Shown one piece after another: positions 2,574 to 64,000 of a stretch of 64,000 nucleotides of DNA. Each line of letters opens with the position of its first letter. Position 1 is the first letter of the stretch. Source of the DNA: Sialis fuliginosa (Eukaryota; Arthropoda; Insecta; Megaloptera; Sialidae); contig OY540810.1 of NCBI GenBank assembly GCA_961205875.1, positions 4,712,001-4,776,000 on the forward strand. The letters run 5' to 3'. A program made the position numbers and the translations under genes. The notes under the pieces were generated by a model. The model worked only from the letters and a program-made list of their open reading frames with translations. It was not told where the DNA came from and searched no databases.

Positions 2574-3139
2574 GTTTTAACCTAATTTTAAATGATGCAA
2601 GATTAACAATTTCATATTTAAATTTTGTATCCGTGTGAAGGGGCACTAATAAACTAACCGGCGGTGAAGTAATACAAAGTAACAAATATACAACATGTAC
2701 AAATGTACATATGTGTGGATACATATGTCAGGTTTTATATCTGTAATAAAATCTTTTGTAATTACATTACCGTCAATGTGTACACTGCCGGTAAAATTAT
2801 ATCTATATAAAAATCTGATCCATAAAAAATGAAAATAAAAACAGTGAACTTTCAATGCACATTAAATTAATTAAAAATTTCCTTATGCAGAAGTCGGAAT
2901 TAAAAAATAATACAGCTTAATATTCTTTTAGATTTCGCGATAAAGACAATAATGCGTATATTTAACGGTGTGTCGAAATACCAGCAATAAAAAGTGGATA
3001 CACGTTCTTATTGAACGTATCGAATGCATTTCACCTAATGTTAAATATTTCAACATTGCAATATATAATAATAATATTTTATATCATCCTTAATATTTCT
3101 TGTAAGAATATGTATAAGGATGGCAGGAATTTTTAGTTT
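2574..3139. other. AT-rich non-coding DNA
   Basis: A 69-codon frame on the minus strand (2646-2855) is unremarkable. No repeat or regulatory motif is supported. Confidence 0.55.
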
Positions 3140-39330: not shown

Positions 39331-39631
39331 ACTCAAGTTGATTAAAAAAATTTCTTTGTTTAATGTTCACTCCTGTACAACTGTAATTTAAAAAAACAGT
39401 TGTAAAAATATAATCATTTTAACATTTCAACATTTTAACAAAATTTCATATAATCATAATTTAAGCAAGTATGTACATCAGTGGCGAGGCGTGAAATTTT
39501 TAATAAAGGAAGCATATTTTGCCAATCTTCCCCCTCCTATTAACAAAAAAAACTAGTTATGAAACACTTTAAGTTCAAGCTTTTACTTTTTTAAATAAAA
39601 TCTTATACATTTGTATAGTAACTAAATTATT

Positions 39632-40380
39632 CTACGTCTTATTCTCTTGTATTTTAGTCGATATTTGTAAGACGAGTTGAAGTTCACTGCAGGAAATATC
39701 ACTAAAATTTTTCGAATTTTTGATTTCGTTAAAAGTATGTTTATTGTATAGAAAATGATGTGAAAAGTTGTCTGTTTCAAACCGCAGGTCTGCATCTCAA
39801 ACCGTTCTCGAGATATAGCCTCTCAAAGTTTTAGTTTTTCAAATTTTTTGAGAAAAAAGGCCATAACTTTTGAACGCGTGGTCGGAATTGATTTTAGTTG
39901 ACGGATTTGAAATCAGCATGTCAAAATCTATATAATGACATGTATAATACTTTAAAATCCGACAAAAAAATTTTGGTCAAAAATTGACATTTTTTTAAGG
40001 TATACCCCTTTGAATTTTTTCGATTTTTCGCGAAATTTTTTTTTCCGAGTTTTAAGGTATTATAGATGTCATAATATAGATTTTGACACGCTGATTCCAA
40101 ATCCGTCAACTAAAATCAATTCCGACCACGCATTCAAAAGTTAGGGCCATTTTTTTTTCTTCAAAATTTTGAAAAAACTAAAACTTTGAGAGGTTATATC
40201 TCGAGAACGGTTTGATATACAGACCTGCGGTTTGAAAATTTAAACTTTTCACGTCATTTTCTATACAATAAACATACTTTTAACAAAATCAAAAATTTGA
40301 AATTTTTTAGTGAAATTTCCTGCAGTGAACTTCAACTCATCATACAAATATCGACTAAAAAACAAGAAAATAAGACGTAG
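39632..40380. mobile_element. Foldback element, about 340-bp arms, short spacer
   Basis: The left arm starts CTACGTCTTATTCTCTTGTA and the right arm ends AAGAAAATAAGACGTAG. The pairing runs through GAAGTTCACTGCAGGAAAT, CCGTTCTCGAGATATA and GTCGGAATTGATTTTAGTTG to within about 35 bp of the centre on each side (spacer about 39971-40036). Identity by eye is near 90 percent. The 62-codon frame at 39921-40109 only spans the spacer. No clear target duplication. Confidence 0.85.
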
Positions 40381-40499
40381 AGGTATTATAGTTTTATAAT
40401 TGAGCATGTAAATTAATATTAAATGCTATTGTTGATTTTTGGTAATATATATACTAATTAGCATACCTTATTATTACACTCAAATCTATTAAAAATATA

Positions 40500-57556: not shown

Positions 57557-58792
57557 TCATTGTGAAAAAAACTAAGTATAGTGCAACCTAGCCCCGAGAT
57601 TGGTCGATTTGTGAATGCTTCAACTGAATTTTAGTTTTTTTGACAATCTGATGTTTGTCTTCAAAAACGACTGCCGCAGAAGGTGCATTGGCCGTTTAAC
57701 CGATTAATAAATGAGATTGAGTCAATCTAATGAGCAATGTTCGACTCCTGATGTTTCACACGCGCATTTCTGTTCCTTTATCAAATGATAGTCAAAATTT
57801 AATAAATTTTTAAAGAAACTATTGTCCATATTAAAATAAATAGACGCCTAAATATAATATAAAATATTTTTATAAATGTTATACTGATATTTATAACAAT
57901 TGAACAAAAAGCATGAAGAAAAGTAATAAAATATTTTTCTTAGCAAATAATAATATATTATGTAATTTTGTATAACTTTCGTAAAAAATTGCTACAAAAT
58001 ACATATTGACTATGACCATTCAGTGTTCGAGTCACTATTGCAGCGCACTTTGGCGCATTCAAACTTGTGGCATTCTTTTTCTCAGTGTATTAAAATAAAT
58101 TTTGTTATATTAGTCGATTCCAATTCCAATCAAATTGATTTAAAATCTTCTTCAAAAGTACCAAATCACATTACGAAAATAGCAGTTGTTCGGTGTTACA
58201 ATTCTTGTTTGTCGAGTGTTATAAAATTTGAAGCAGGCAACAATAAAGGTAAAAAAGTAATAGATTTTATAGCTCCCACATAAACCTTCAGCCAGACTTC
58301 GGCAGTGAAAAGCTGGGAATGTTCGAACGTTTCTACAAATAAGACCCTATAAATCTAATATCGTTCGATCGAGTTGCATTTTAAAGCAAATAGTAACATA
58401 CTATAGTAGGTATACTCAAAATATTCTACACTGTAATAAATATATTGTTAAAAACTTTAATAGTTTCTAATATAAGTACAAATTATTCCTTATTTTTCAA
58501 ACTATATAAATTATTGTTAGTTTAATTACTTTAACAACACAATTTTGTTTTTATATTTCCCTAAATACGGGTCTGCTGTAAATAAATTATTATATAGCCT
58601 AATGGGTAGGTTTTCTAATAGTAAATCCTATCAAAACTGATTCAGTAGTTTTATCGTCAAGTTGGGACAAACAAATAGACAAGTCACATTGATAGACAGG
58701 CAAACTAAATTTTTAAAACCATAATGGATTATACTGCCAGTAAAACAAAGGACATGTAGATTAAAAACAAAACAAAATACTTTCATTGTACA
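57557..58792. other. AT-rich DNA, no assigned feature
   Basis: Two GC-neutral patches (57590-57780, 58010-58340) hold no recognisable repeat. The 86-codon frame at 58023-58283 (starts MFESLLQRTLAHSNLW) has mixed composition but no domain I recognise. Confidence 0.4.
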
Positions 58793-59472
58793 CAGAGCCG
58801 GCCTTTGCGATTCTGGCGCCCCAGGCGAGATTTTTTTTTGACGCCCCCCCCCACCCCCACAGTGACGATCATTAAAAATTATCCGCACAAAAAAAAAAAA
58901 AAAGCTTGAGAAAATTATCTTGTTATTAATTCATTAGTGTAATATAATAATATAATATAACATATAATTGATAAATAATATATAATATAACTAAAATTAT
59001 ATAAAAGATTTCTTCCTGGCTTTCATATCTGCAAAATTATCGATTGCTGTCTCAAAATTGAGGTTTGCTACAACCTTATTTTCAATTGAAAGAATAGCCA
59101 AATTATTCAACCTATCTTCTATCATAGCCGATTGCAAATAAGTTTTTATGAATTATTTTAATTTACTAAAACTTCTTTCACCACTAGCTACACTAACCGG
59201 AATTAGCAAAGCCACCCACAGATTTGGCACTGTGCTTTTCAAGTTTTGTAAAAAAATGTTTAATAAATAATTTATTTTTGATATTAAGCATTTTATTAAG
59301 TAAAATGAATTATTTTGCAGAAAAAATCAAAACTATTATTCAAAAAATATATATAGCTTAAATTTGGCGCCCTAGAACAGAACATAGAAAAAAAGTTTAA
59401 AATAATTGGCGCCCCCACGAAATTAGCGCCCCAGGCTGTCGCCTGGGTCGCCTGGCCGTTCGGCCGGCCCTG
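58793..59472 (-). mobile_element. Non-autonomous hAT element with transposase tail, copy 1
   Basis: The left end CAGAGCCGGCC...GGCGCCCCAGGCG and the right end, as complement CAGGGCCGGCCGAACGGCC...GACCCAGGCG, are the long GC-rich TIRs of a hAT element. Length about 680 bp. The middle encodes only the last part of the transposase on the minus strand, so a large internal deletion has occurred. No clear 8-bp target duplication was seen (ATTGTACA on the left, T-run on the right). A near-identical copy begins at 63674. Confidence 0.85.
58997..59245 (-). pseudogene. hAT transposase C-terminal dimerisation domain
   Basis: The minus-strand frame reads NLKSTVPNLWVALLIPV, SVASGERSFSKLK, then one stop codon, then FIKTYLQSA, MIEDRLNNLAILSIEN and ends ADMKARKKSFI before TAA. 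VASGERSFSKLK...RL.NLAILSIE is the diagnostic hAT C-terminal dimerisation region, here of the TTF/zinc-finger-MYM-like branch of hAT transposases. About 83 codons against 600 or more in a whole transposase. It cannot act as a transposase; it survives as part of the element's interior. Confidence 0.9.
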
Positions 59473-60149
59473 TTTTTTTTTACTTATCCAAGTATTAAAC
59501 CAATCTATAGATTCTAATAAATTGAAAATTTATCAATAATGATGAACGGATGGCATATTAAAAAAAATATATTGTTACATTCATCAGAGTAACCGTTTTT
59601 TTAAATTAGAGCGAATTGTCGCTGAAGAAGTATCGACTATCGTCTAATTTTTATAATACGCGTGATTTTGCTAATTAACTTTTTGTATAGTGTTTACCAG
59701 GTATGTACATTGTGATTCATATTATTTATTTGATTTTTTTGTTTCGGTTCTGATATTTATGTAATGGTTTTTATTTGTTAACGTATGTTTACATCATGCA
59801 CTTGTCGAAAGAGCAATAAAACTAAGTTTTGTTAACGAATGTACATATCCTCATTGTTTATAGTTAATAATAATTATATAATTTATAAAAATATAATTTT
59901 AATAATAAAAAAAAGGTAATATTATTCTCTCCATTATATAACAAGTGATTTTTTTTAACGTAATAACTGAAATCAGATGTTTACTCTTGTAAATTTTTGA
60001 ATTAACGAATTATTTTTGAATTAAGAAAAAATGTTTTAGATAAAAAATGTCGAGTATGTTATTATCTATAATTTATTCCCTATACATTTTTTTCCAACAT
60101 TTATAATTTAGCCAGAAAGAAATTTTTTATGTAATTATTTAGATTCACC
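59473..60149. other. AT-rich non-coding DNA
   Basis: Nothing recognisable. Confidence 0.5.
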
Positions 60150-60269
60150 TACACTGTTCACTATCAGTATTACGTATAAGAAAGTCCCATGGTACCTATG
60201 GCAAACAAGCACACTGTTTAATCTCTGTACTACGTATAAGAAAGTCCCATGACACTCATGGCAGATATT
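60150..60269 (+). repeat. Tandem duplication, 2 x 60 bp
   Basis: TACGTATAAGAAAGTCCCATG occurs at 60171 and 60231, and the match extends from ACACTGTT before it to ATGGCA after it (about 60-bp period). The units differ at several bases, so the duplication is not very recent. Confidence 0.8.
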
Positions 60270-60450
60270 TCTCCTCTGTTATGAACCATTTGAATTATAA
60301 TAAAATTGCATGACGTTAACATTTGTTTACAAAGTCAAAAAAATGAAATAAACTTTTATTTTCAAAAAAAGATTTTTTTTACTATTTTTCCCTTAAATCT
60401 AGCCTACTTCTGCTTCAAAAAATTAATATTTCGTTAAAATAAAAAAAATC

Positions 60451-60466
60451 ATGCAATTAAGGGTTA
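60451..60466 (+). repeat. Left inverted bracket of the 184-bp array
   Basis: ATGCAATTAAGGGTTA, the exact reverse complement of 63593-63608. TTAA within it (60457-60460) and the GGGTTAA that follows recall piggyBac-type TTAA/CCC ends. Confidence 0.8.
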
Positions 60467-63400
60467 AAGATAATAGTGTAAGCTACATTTAAAAAAAAAC
60501 TGGAGTCTCCTCGATCGCGCCAAGCTGAGATATTAACTATTCAATTTACTTCTTTGTTAGCGTATGAGTTTTAATTTGTTTTTTTTAGTTTTAACTTGTT
60601 TTTAAAAAGGGAAGGAGCACGCGAAGGTCTTTAAGTGCGTGATGCTCTTAAAGATAATAGTGTAAGCTACATTTAAAAAAAAAACTGGAGTCTCTTCGAT
60701 CGCGCCAAGCTGAGATATTAACTATTCAATTTACTTCTTTGTTAGCGTATGAGTTTTAATTTGTTTTTTTAGTTTTAACTTGTTTTTAAAAAGGGAAGGA
60801 GCACGCGAAGGTCTTTAAGTGCGTGATGCTCTTAAAGATAATAGTGTAAGCTACATTTAAAAAAAAAACTGGAGTCTCTTCTATCGCGCCAAGCTGAGAT
60901 ATTAACTATTCAATTTACTTCTTTGTTAGCGTAGGAGTTTTAATTTGTTTTTTTAGTTTTAACTTGTTTTTAAAAAGGGAAGGAGCACGCGAAGGTCTTT
61001 AAGTGCGTGATGCTCTTAAAGATAATAGTGTAAGCTACATTTAAAAAAAAAACTGGAGTCTCTTCGATCGCGCCAAGCTGAGATATTACCTATTCAATTT
61101 ACTTCTTTGTTAGCGTATGAGTTTTAATTTGTTTTTTTAGTTTTAACTTGTTTTTAAAAAGGGAAGGAGCACGCGAAGGTCTTTAAGTGCGTGATGCTCT
61201 TAAAGATAATAGTGTAAGCTACATTTTAAAAAAAAACTGGAGTCTCTTCGATCGCGCCAAGCTGAGATATTAACTATTCAATTTACTTCTTTGTTAGCGT
61301 ATGAGTTTTAATTTGTTTTTTTAGTTTTAACTTGTTTTTAAAAAGGGAAGGAGCACGCGAAGGTCTTTAAGTGCGTGATGCTCTTAAAGATAATAGTGTA
61401 AGCTACATTTAAAAAAAAAACTGGAGTCTCTTCGATCGCGCCAAGCTGAGATATTAACTATTCAATTTACTTCTTTGTTAGCGTATGAGTTTTAATTTGT
61501 TTTTTTAGTTTTAACTTGTTTTTAAAAAGGGAAGGAGCACGCGAAGGTCTTTAAGTGCGTGATGCTCTTAAAGATAATAGTGTAAGCTACATTTAAAAAA
61601 AAAACTGGAGTCTCTTCGATCGCGCCAAGCTGAGATATTAACTATTCAATTTACTTCTTTGTTAGCGTATGAGTTTTAATTTGTTTTTTTTTAGTTTTAA
61701 CTTGTTTTTAAAAAGGGAAGGAGCACGCGAAGGTCTTTAAGTGCGTGATGCTCTTAAAGATAATAGTATAAGCTACATTTAAAAAAAAAACTGGAGTCTC
61801 TTCGATCGCGCCAAGCTGAGATATTAACTATTCAATTTACTTCTTTGTTAGCGTATGAGTTTTAATTTGTTTTTTTAGTTTTAACTTGTTTTTAAAAAGG
61901 GAAGGAGCACGCGAAGGTCTTTAAGTGCGTGATGCTCTTAAAGAAAATAGTGTAAGCTACATTTAAAAAAAAAACTGGAGTCTCTTCGATCGCGCCAAGC
62001 TGAGATATTAACTATTCAATTTACTTCTTTGTTAGCGTATGAGTTTTAATTTGTTTTTTTAGTTTTAACTTGTTTTTAAAAAGGGAAGGAGCACGCGAAG
62101 GTCTTTAAGTGCGTGATGCTCTTAAAGATAATAGTGTAAGCTACATTTAAAAAAAAACTGGAGTCTCTTCGATCGCGCCAAGCTGAGATATTAACTATTC
62201 AATTTACTTCTTTGTTAGCGTATGAGTTTTAATTTGTTTTTTTAGTTTTAACTTGTTTTTAAAAAGGGAAGGAGCACGCGAAGGTCTTTAAGTGCGTGAT
62301 GCTCTTAAAGATAATAGTGTAAGCTACATTTAAAAAAAAAACTGGAGTCTCTTCGATCGCGCCAAGCTGAGATATTAACTATTCAATTTACTTCTTTGTT
62401 AGCGTATGAGTTTTAATTTGTTTTTTTAGTTTTAACTTGTTTTTAAAAAGGGAAGGAGCACGCGAAGGTCTTTAAGTGCGTGATGCTCTTAAAGATAATA
62501 GTGTAAGCTACATTTAAAAAAAAAACTGGAGTCTCTTCGATCGCGCCAAGCTGAGATATTAACTATTCAATTTACTTCTTTGTTAGCGTATGAGTTTTAA
62601 TTTGTTTTTTTAGTTTTAACTTGTTTTTAAAAAGGGAAGGAGCACGCGAAGGTCTTTAAGTGCGTGATGCTCTTAAAGATAATAGTGTAAGCTACATTTA
62701 AAAAAAACTGGAGTCTCTTCGATCGCACCAAGCTGAGATATTAACTATTCAATTTACTTCTTTGTTAGCGTATGAGTTTTAATTTGTTTTTTTAGTTTTA
62801 ACTTGTTTTTAAAAAGGGAAGGAGCACGCGAAGGTCTTTAAGTGCGTGATGCTCTTAAAGATAATAGTGTAAGCTACATTTAAAAAAAAAAACTGGAGTC
62901 TCTTCGATCGCGCCAAGCTGAGATATTAACTATTCAATTTACTTCTTTGTTAGCGTATGAGTTTTAATTTGTTTTTTTAGTTTTAACTTGTTTTTAAAAA
63001 GGGAAGGAGCACGCGAAGGTCTTTAAGTGCGTGATGCTCTTAAAGATAATAGTGTAAGCTACATTTAAAAAAAAAACTGGAGTCTCTTCGATCGCGCCAA
63101 GCTGAGATATTAACTATTCAATTTACTTCTTTGTTAGCGTATGAGTTTTAATTTGTTTTTTTTTAGTTTTAACTTGTTTTTAAAAAGGGAAGGAGCACGC
63201 GAAGGTCTTTAAGTGCGTGATGCTCTTAAAGATAATAGTGTAAGCTACATTTTAAAAAAAAACTGGAGTCTCTTCGATCGCGCCAAGCTGAGATATTAAC
63301 TATTCAATTTACTTCTTTGTTAGCGTATGAGTTTTAATTTGTTTTTTTAGTTTTAACTTGTTTTTAAAAAGGGAAGGAGCACGCGAAGGTCTCTAAGTGC

Positions 63401-63595
63401 GTGATGCCCTTAAAGATAATAGTGTAAGCTACATTTTAAAAAAACTGGAGTCTCTTCGATCGCGCCAAGCTGAGATATTAACTATTCAATTTACTTCTTT
63501 GTTAGCGTATGAGTTTTAATTTGTTTTTTTAATTTTAACTTGTTTTTAAAAAGGGAAGGAGCACGCGAAGGTCTTTAAGTGCGTGATGCTCTTAA
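60466..63595 (+). repeat. Satellite array, 17 x 184-bp unit
   Basis: Anchoring on TAATAGTGTAAGCTACATTT, units begin at 60471, 60655, 60839, 61023, 61207, 61391, 61575, 61761, 61945, 62129, 62312, 62496, 62680, 62862, 63047, 63233 and 63417. Spacing is 182-186, mostly 184, and length changes sit in one A run and one T run. Unit landmarks are CTGGAGTCTCTTCGATCGCG, CCAAGCTGAGATATTAACTA, TTTGTTAGCGTATGAG and GGAAGGAGCACGCGAAGG. Substitutions are few per unit and more frequent in the first and last units. Each unit ends in a hairpin-forming GAGCACGC...GCGTGATGCTC. No coding frame. Confidence 0.97.
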
Positions 63596-63608
63596 CCCTT
63601 AATTGCAT
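63593..63608 (-). repeat. Right inverted bracket of the 184-bp array
   Basis: TAACCCTTAATTGCAT, the perfect inverse of 60451-60466, follows directly on the hairpin of the last unit. Confidence 0.8.
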
Positions 63609-63673
63609 CTTGTTAACATTGGTGAACAATGTTTTCAGAGGTATCTATTAGCAAAAATGTACAATATTTTTTA

Positions 63674-64000
63674 GCCTTTGCGATTCTGGCGCCCCAGGCG
63701 AGATTTCTTTTGACGCCCCCCCCCCCCCCCCCTTTCCACCGCCACAGTGACGATCATTAAAAATTATCCGCACAAAAAAAAAAAAAGCGTGAGAAAATTA
63801 TCTTGTTATTAATTCATTAGTGTAATATAATAATATAATATAACATATAATTGATAAATAATATATAATATAACTAAAATTATATAAAAGATTTCTTCCT
63901 GGCTTTCATATCTGCAAAATTATCGATTGCTGTCTCAAAATTGAGGTTTGCTACAACCTTATTTTCAATTGAAAGAATAGCCAAATTATTCAACCTATCT
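63674..64000 (-). mobile_element. hAT element copy 2, cut by window end
   Basis: GCCTTTGCGATTCTGGCGCC onward repeats 58801-59118 almost base for base; differences lie mainly in homopolymers (a 17-base C run at 63716-63732). The outermost 8 bases or so of the TIR are missing. The minus-strand frame from the window end to 63880 again encodes RLNNLAILSIENKVVANL and ADMKARKKSFI before the stop. The remaining part lies beyond 64000. Confidence 0.9.

Follow-up and report, generated by a model that had tools for sequence, protein, structure and literature searches.

In the 64,000-nucleotide stretch of Sialis fuliginosa DNA analysed here (the window; C2:4712001-4776000 of a 392-Mb assembly in 20 contigs), an array of a 184-bp satellite appears to be the cargo of a composite hAT transposon, or macrotransposon, whose mobile unit would run from position 58793 to position 64360. 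Judged from sequence, we put the probability of this reading at about 0.93. A preliminary description of the same DNA had proposed that a mobile element carries the satellite, and this much holds, as a cut-and-paste transposon seems to do so; the carrier, however, would be the hAT composite and not an element bounded by the inverted brackets of the array. The two hAT copies that were then listed as lying nearby form the two termini of the mobile unit. The TTAA that was then suggested as a possible target preference of the mobile element belongs to an older piggyBac-like insertion, here called P, whose ends face each other across the array.

Results

TRF found a single array in the window, at 60464-63595 on the forward strand (period 184, 17.0 copies, 98% matches), in accord with the seventeen near-identical 184-bp units reported previously, and both its start and its end fall precisely at the unit's own TTAA. 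The perfect inverted repeat that exactly encloses it proved to be 17 bp long, one longer than the 16 bp first given: ATGCAATTAAGGGTTAA, the right end of P plus TTAA, lies at 60451-60467 on the forward strand, and its exact reverse complement, the left end of P plus TTAA, lies on the minus strand at 63592-63608, with units alone between them. The 16-mer form of the bracket has two exact occurrences in the window, one at each end of the array. Allowing up to 3 mismatches raises this to 4 matches where 1.78 are expected, and 9 of 100 shuffles also reach 4, so the meaning of the bracket rests on the two exact matches and their position. Genome-wide, the exact 17-mer occurs 167 times in forward and 162 times in reverse orientation, and the reversed control 0 times. 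Among the 100 bracket matches listed, 76 make up 38 facing pairs and 24 have no exact partner; these 38 pairs enclose 6-44 units (median 17), in every case a whole number to within about 0.1. Many loci with the same brackets and varied unit number were what the preliminary description had expected a genome search to return. A 31-base piece of the unit occurs 8197 times in the assembly at up to 3 mismatches, and Rfam, at gathering thresholds, gave 0 matches over 58700-64000.

Among the matches listed, the exact brackets on C1 and C2 are confined to contig-end regions: on C1 (47.1 Mb), 20 lie within the first 9.6 Mb and 6 beyond 44.9 Mb, and on C2 (40.5 Mb), 17 lie within the first 6.8 Mb and 14 beyond 36.4 Mb, with the stretch in the middle empty in both. 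Those listed on C3 (36.8 Mb), by contrast, are spread from 0.1 to 26.4 Mb.

The sequence shared by the copies continues beyond the brackets. On the left, the flank outside the bracket matches the window in 14 of 14 other rows, some of them internally deleted; on the right, 15 of 16 other rows match at all 409 bases compared, and the sixteenth (L011), a P copy with neither array nor hAT, matches over 44 bp only. Outside the brackets the copies share about 1.66 kb of sequence to the left and 0.75 kb to the right. At the ends of a terminal inverted repeat (TIR) element the flanks should change at the bracket, and here they do not. The preliminary description had itself named a wider shared context of the bracket as evidence against its model, and the recurrence of the flanks at the other copies read is evidence of that kind.

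The order of the composite is hAT_L - PR - array - PL - hAT_R, all in forward orientation, with limits at 58793 and 64360 (5568 bp, the last 360 bp past the window); the DNA past the window was followed in L061 and in three whole copies. hAT_L (58793-59472) is a 680-bp non-autonomous hAT with both ends intact (CAGAGCCGGCC ... GGCCGGCCCTG, inverted over 10 of 11 bp). PR (59473-60463), the right part of P, has the hAT duplication TTTTTTAC at its start, here with a longer T-run, and ends ATGCAATTAAGGG; on the far side of the array, PL (63596-63673), the left part, begins CCCTTAATTGCAT and extends to the hAT insertion point. The second copy, hAT_R (63674-64000, and on to 64360), has the same orientation as hAT_L and is without its inner end. 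The distances of 66 and 979 bp between the brackets and the two hAT copies had been given correctly (63608 to 63674; 59472 to 60451). One minus-strand fragment of hAT_R is a relic of Dimer_Tnp_hAT (PF05699, E 2.5e-06, above the cut-off), and a second hAT_R fragment has a DUF match only, below the cut-off (E 0.22). As in a macrotransposon, two hAT copies in direct orientation surround other DNA, and a target site duplication, ATTGTACA, lies outside both, at 58785-58792 and, beyond the window end, at 64361-64368 (L061 861-868).

Perfect 8-bp duplications, the length characteristic of the hAT superfamily, were found outside the outer hAT ends in 8 of the 11 composites with both borders read, and all eight differ: ATTGTACA, ACCAGCAC, GTTACCGG, GACAAACC, ACGAACTT, CGTCATAC, CATACATA and, at a multimer on C12, CCTACAAT. 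The fresh duplication is at the outer ends only, and the inner sides hold the older TTTTTTAC from the insertion in P. With duplications outside the two hATs, and with outside sequence recurring at other copies, the earlier claim that the brackets are the TIRs of a mobile element has to be given up. Among the irregular composites, L064 is without hAT_L and keeps 7 of 8 duplication bases beside the T-run usual after hAT_L, and so looks as if hAT_L had been excised alone; L087 is cut on its left side inside the array, with no duplication seen; and in L021/L067 the right hAT continues into 113 bp of P, after which other DNA begins. For L046, a deletion form, a single border was read, and the loci read lie mostly on contigs C1-C3. 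Furthermore, the insertion at L029/L030 falls in a repeat family of which three other copies are uninterrupted at that place and serve as paralogous empty sites: L023 and L064 hold one CGTCATAC, and the copy in the window near 40345 has one base of it changed.

This repeat, at 39470-40437 of the window and also at L023, L029/L030 and L064, has long internal inverted arms and was hit by one composite insertion. Elsewhere, L019 (C1:9.56 Mb) and L087 (C5:15.85 Mb) have 569 bp of right flank in common at 99.5%, explained either by a segmental duplication or by a larger mobile block in which the composites inserted. At L021/L067 (C1:44913995-44922000) the 113 bp are from the right part of P, and the DNA beyond has a 7/8 match, by eye, to the left flank; the arrangement may be a record of donor order or of aberrant transposition.

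In normal order P reads TTAA-CCCTTAATTGCAT ... ATGCAATTAAGGG-TTAA, with a 13-bp inverted TIR (CCCTTAATTGCAT) that has CCC beside the TTAA. The TIR of piggyBac elements starts with CCC beside TTAA, and P is similar to them in its TTAA target and the CCC at its ends. P is about 1.06 kb long; the longest listed frame in L072 has 56 codons, and one scanned frame of a longer copy matched nothing. It is best described as a putative non-autonomous piggyBac-like element, present as an older insertion in the satellite TTAA. Its uninterrupted junction occurs at four exact places genome-wide, with two more at 2 mismatches (reversed control, 1 match). Two of the four exact junctions, L065 (C1) and L074 (C8), are P outside the satellite, and L072 and L073 (both C3) are P inside the 184-bp satellite without hAT, with the array on both sides and in phase. 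Deleting P and one TTAA from L072 and L073 restores the unit junction CTC-TTAA-AGAT (one left base is changed at L072). TTAA flanks P on both sides at L073 and on the left side only at L074, and is altered on one side at L072 (TTTA) and L065 (TTAG). L072 and L073 correspond to the ancestral state that would be predicted for the composite.

In the composites the hAT divides P, and its duplication TTTTTTAC is present at each inner side. Of 19 distinct loci on the P-left side, 7 have TTTTTTAC followed by an intact hAT end and 12 are without this inner end (three of 22 rows are left out of this count: L010, with no match; L011, P without hAT; and L062, the same locus as L009); on the P-right side, TTTTTTAC follows the hAT, often with a longer T-run. 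Genome-wide, at up to 3 mismatches, the inner hAT end is intact at 44 junctions and deleted at 110. As the hAT lies in P, marked by TTTTTTAC, and P in the satellite TTAA, the brackets are therefore the ends of P turned inside out, and they are so because the unit extends across the array between one hAT copy and the following one. Another relative of P, at L077 (C1:7170751-7171700), is cut by the same hAT lineage at a different place.

The two hAT copies of the composite have a mean identity of 99.1% between sides (119 comparisons, 7 left by 17 right copies), and same-side identity is 99.4% for left copies (21 comparisons) and 99.0% for right copies (136); five rows are excluded from these figures (L013_L, L014_L, L029_L, L021_L, which duplicates L021_R, and solo_L078). 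Left and right copies are about as alike as copies of the same side, and the two-copy arrangement thus appears to have arisen not long before the copies dispersed. Against these composite hATs, four single hAT copies have identities of 92.5-99.3%. The edge units are also marked: 14 of 17 composites show C at one fixed place in the first unit, beside P, and 15 of 18 show T at a different fixed place in the last unit. In four completely read arrays, with 31 internal units, no internal unit has either marker, and in two of these arrays the last unit also bears the first marker. At the P-only loci, the first-unit marker is present in L072, and the second marker in neither L072 nor L073.

At up to 3 mismatches, 158 P-right/array and 178 array/P-left boundaries occur genome-wide, a few of them from P-only loci, and at up to 2 mismatches there are 406 occurrences of the right end of the hAT (26 bases). 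If each composite has two hAT ends (some 154-178 composites), about 50-100 hAT ends lie elsewhere; at about 17 units each, the composites would explain some 2700-3000 of the 8197 unit matches. The C12 locus (L088, C12:14903501-14913400) is a trimer, hAT-PR-array-hAT-PR-array-hAT-PR-array-hAT, with one 8-bp duplication, CCTACAAT, around the whole. Its four hATs and three arrays come with deletions of portions of P and of the edge units, and two blocks are identical over 1200 bp. It is possible that this trimer is a new higher-order satellite.

Of the arrays without an exact bracket, four on C1 were read (1574, 344, 3488 and 3625 kb): two are deletion forms of the composite, one of which keeps the CATACATA duplication, and two are free. 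The free array L066 has 4 full and two partial units, about 98% identical to composite units, with limits at unit positions 46 and 92. The other (C1:3624.8-3630.4 kb) is about 5.6 kb long, which corresponds to some 30 units, and has edges at unit positions 124 and 46; its end units, read at the two borders, are about 89% identical. P and hAT are absent from the borders of both arrays. Unbracketed arrays at random phases had been named beforehand as a finding that would speak against bracketed mobility, and two such arrays were found. Free and diverged arrays exist, and the satellite is therefore probably older than the composite.

On both sides of the 89% free array lie direct copies of one half of a different inverted-repeat element (373 bp, 98.9%; L070/L071, C1:3623001-3625500 and C1:3630001-3633000); this is possibly a second composite, of another kind.

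Discussion

Five steps, each legible in the loci themselves, account for the composite. A 184-bp satellite carrying TTAA at its unit junction was entered, at that TTAA, by the non-autonomous piggyBac-like P; the 680-bp hAT entered P, duplicating TTTTTTAC; the unit as it now stands spans a hAT copy, P right, the array, P left and the next hAT copy, so that the P ends became inverted brackets; and this whole unit inserted at the eight sites read, each with its own outer 8-bp duplication. The hAT transposase would presumably have been supplied in trans and have acted on the outer ends, the remaining copies may have dispersed by the same route, and the unit number probably alters in place. As for the two-hAT order, it could have come from unequal exchange between satellite units flanking P, or from re-replication of the hAT and its flanks. 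The simplest route would be unequal exchange, giving two hAT-bearing copies of P with array between, followed by outer-to-outer transposition, and the tandem multiplication at C12, most simply explained by unequal exchange, makes this route plausible. Among the loci read, mostly on C1-C3, none proved to be a source locus with the tandem order array - P with hAT - array. Two candidates were rejected: on C5, where two array/P-left boundaries are 7.5 kb apart, the fetched stretch is a separate left-truncated copy with no second copy joined, and at L021 P is cut after 113 bp.

The same composite might instead have been built by alternative transposition with re-replication, in which the hAT flanks are copied outward into the satellite and the broken ends joined within the array. 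This is described for Ac, itself a hAT element (PMC4270019); it yields the same inside-out order with an expected hidden join in the satellite, and the near-identity of hAT_L and hAT_R is what a single recent event predicts. However, it requires two nearby hAT ends in reversed order or sister-chromatid ends, of which the loci read hold no trace, and the multiplication at C12 lends plausibility to the simpler exchange; we consider it rather unlikely. It is a good deal less probable that the satellite was born in the composite or in P and that the unbracketed arrays are later escapes. Transposon-born satellites are known, such as Tetris (PMC4079207), and the 98% likeness of L066 to composite units would fit such an escape, but P sits in a unit TTAA with the phase restored on its removal at two loci without hAT, so that the array preceded the entry of P, and the 5.6-kb array with its 89% end units has no P or hAT at its borders.

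Two further explanations concern how the copies spread, and both are hardly tenable. A TIR element with the brackets as its ends, inserting at TTAA and carrying the satellite, would predict the many paired brackets with differing unit numbers, yet it is already refuted by the shared flanks (left about 1.66 kb, right 0.75 kb); besides, the duplications sit at the outer hAT ends, and P with the same ends occurs in normal order both within and outside satellites. Spread by segmental duplication could draw on the L019 (C1) and L087 (C5) pair, with its 569 bp of right flank at 99.5%, but eight composites differ from one another both in their flanks and in their perfect 8-bp duplications, which refutes it for those eight, and one insertion has clean empty sites. 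With slightly less than even odds, we would go further and suggest that this animal hAT macrotransposon family out-multiplies its single parent element, seeds arrays of 6-44 units and becomes a second-order satellite through exchange between hAT arms, as in the C12 trimer, in a cycle from satellite to transposon to satellite.

How satellites arrive at new sites on chromosome arms is an old question, on which much of the evidence is circumstantial. In the present case each layer carries a duplication of its own: TTAA for the first, TTTTTTAC for the second and, for the third, 8 bp that differ between the loci read; loci that lack the last layer are still present. Furthermore, the many copies of varied length, apparently from one founder array, amount to a natural experiment, in replicate, on how a satellite expands when its starting units are known. 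The composite also suggests that an element with two hAT copies is able to last and to multiply as a family, and it carries a warning: inverted brackets around an array need not be transposon ends.

Helentrons, including HINE elements, are not known to make a target duplication, but an 8-bp duplication is present here. Maize Ac/Ds macrotransposons were reportedly described by Huang and Dooner in 2008. In the open-licence literature searched we noticed no report of a hAT macrotransposon family with a satellite cargo, which is weak evidence of absence. In maize, linked Ac/Ds elements form macrotransposons able to excise and to increase in number (PMC9910405, PMC3260210), and alternative transposition with re-replication gives composite insertions in which transposon termini flank duplicated segments (PMC4270019). 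The likeness is close, as in both cases two linked hATs and the intervening DNA move together, with 8-bp duplications and inside-out composite insertions (PMC9910405, PMC3260210, PMC4270019); however, the maize cases described there are alleles and lines, whereas here one composite has apparently given rise to a family of some 150 copies or more with a satellite cargo of variable length. The oyster Cg_HINE elements are non-autonomous Helentrons with central satellite-like arrays, dispersed genome-wide (PMC7492417), and resemble the present family in being non-autonomous and in dispersing such arrays, but they are single Helentron elements, as against two hAT ends and an 8-bp duplication here. 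In fungi, gene-carrying hATs multiply captured DNA to many copies, with 8-bp duplications (PMC6710886), as the composite seems to do, although what is described there is capture within one element rather than between two copies, with no satellite. Finally, Tetris of Drosophila virilis, a foldback element giving rise to a satellite, likewise ties a transposon to a satellite of about 200-bp units (PMC4079207); its repeats lie within the TIRs and its satellite is derived from the element, whereas in S. fuliginosa the satellite would be captured cargo and the brackets the remnants of another insertion.
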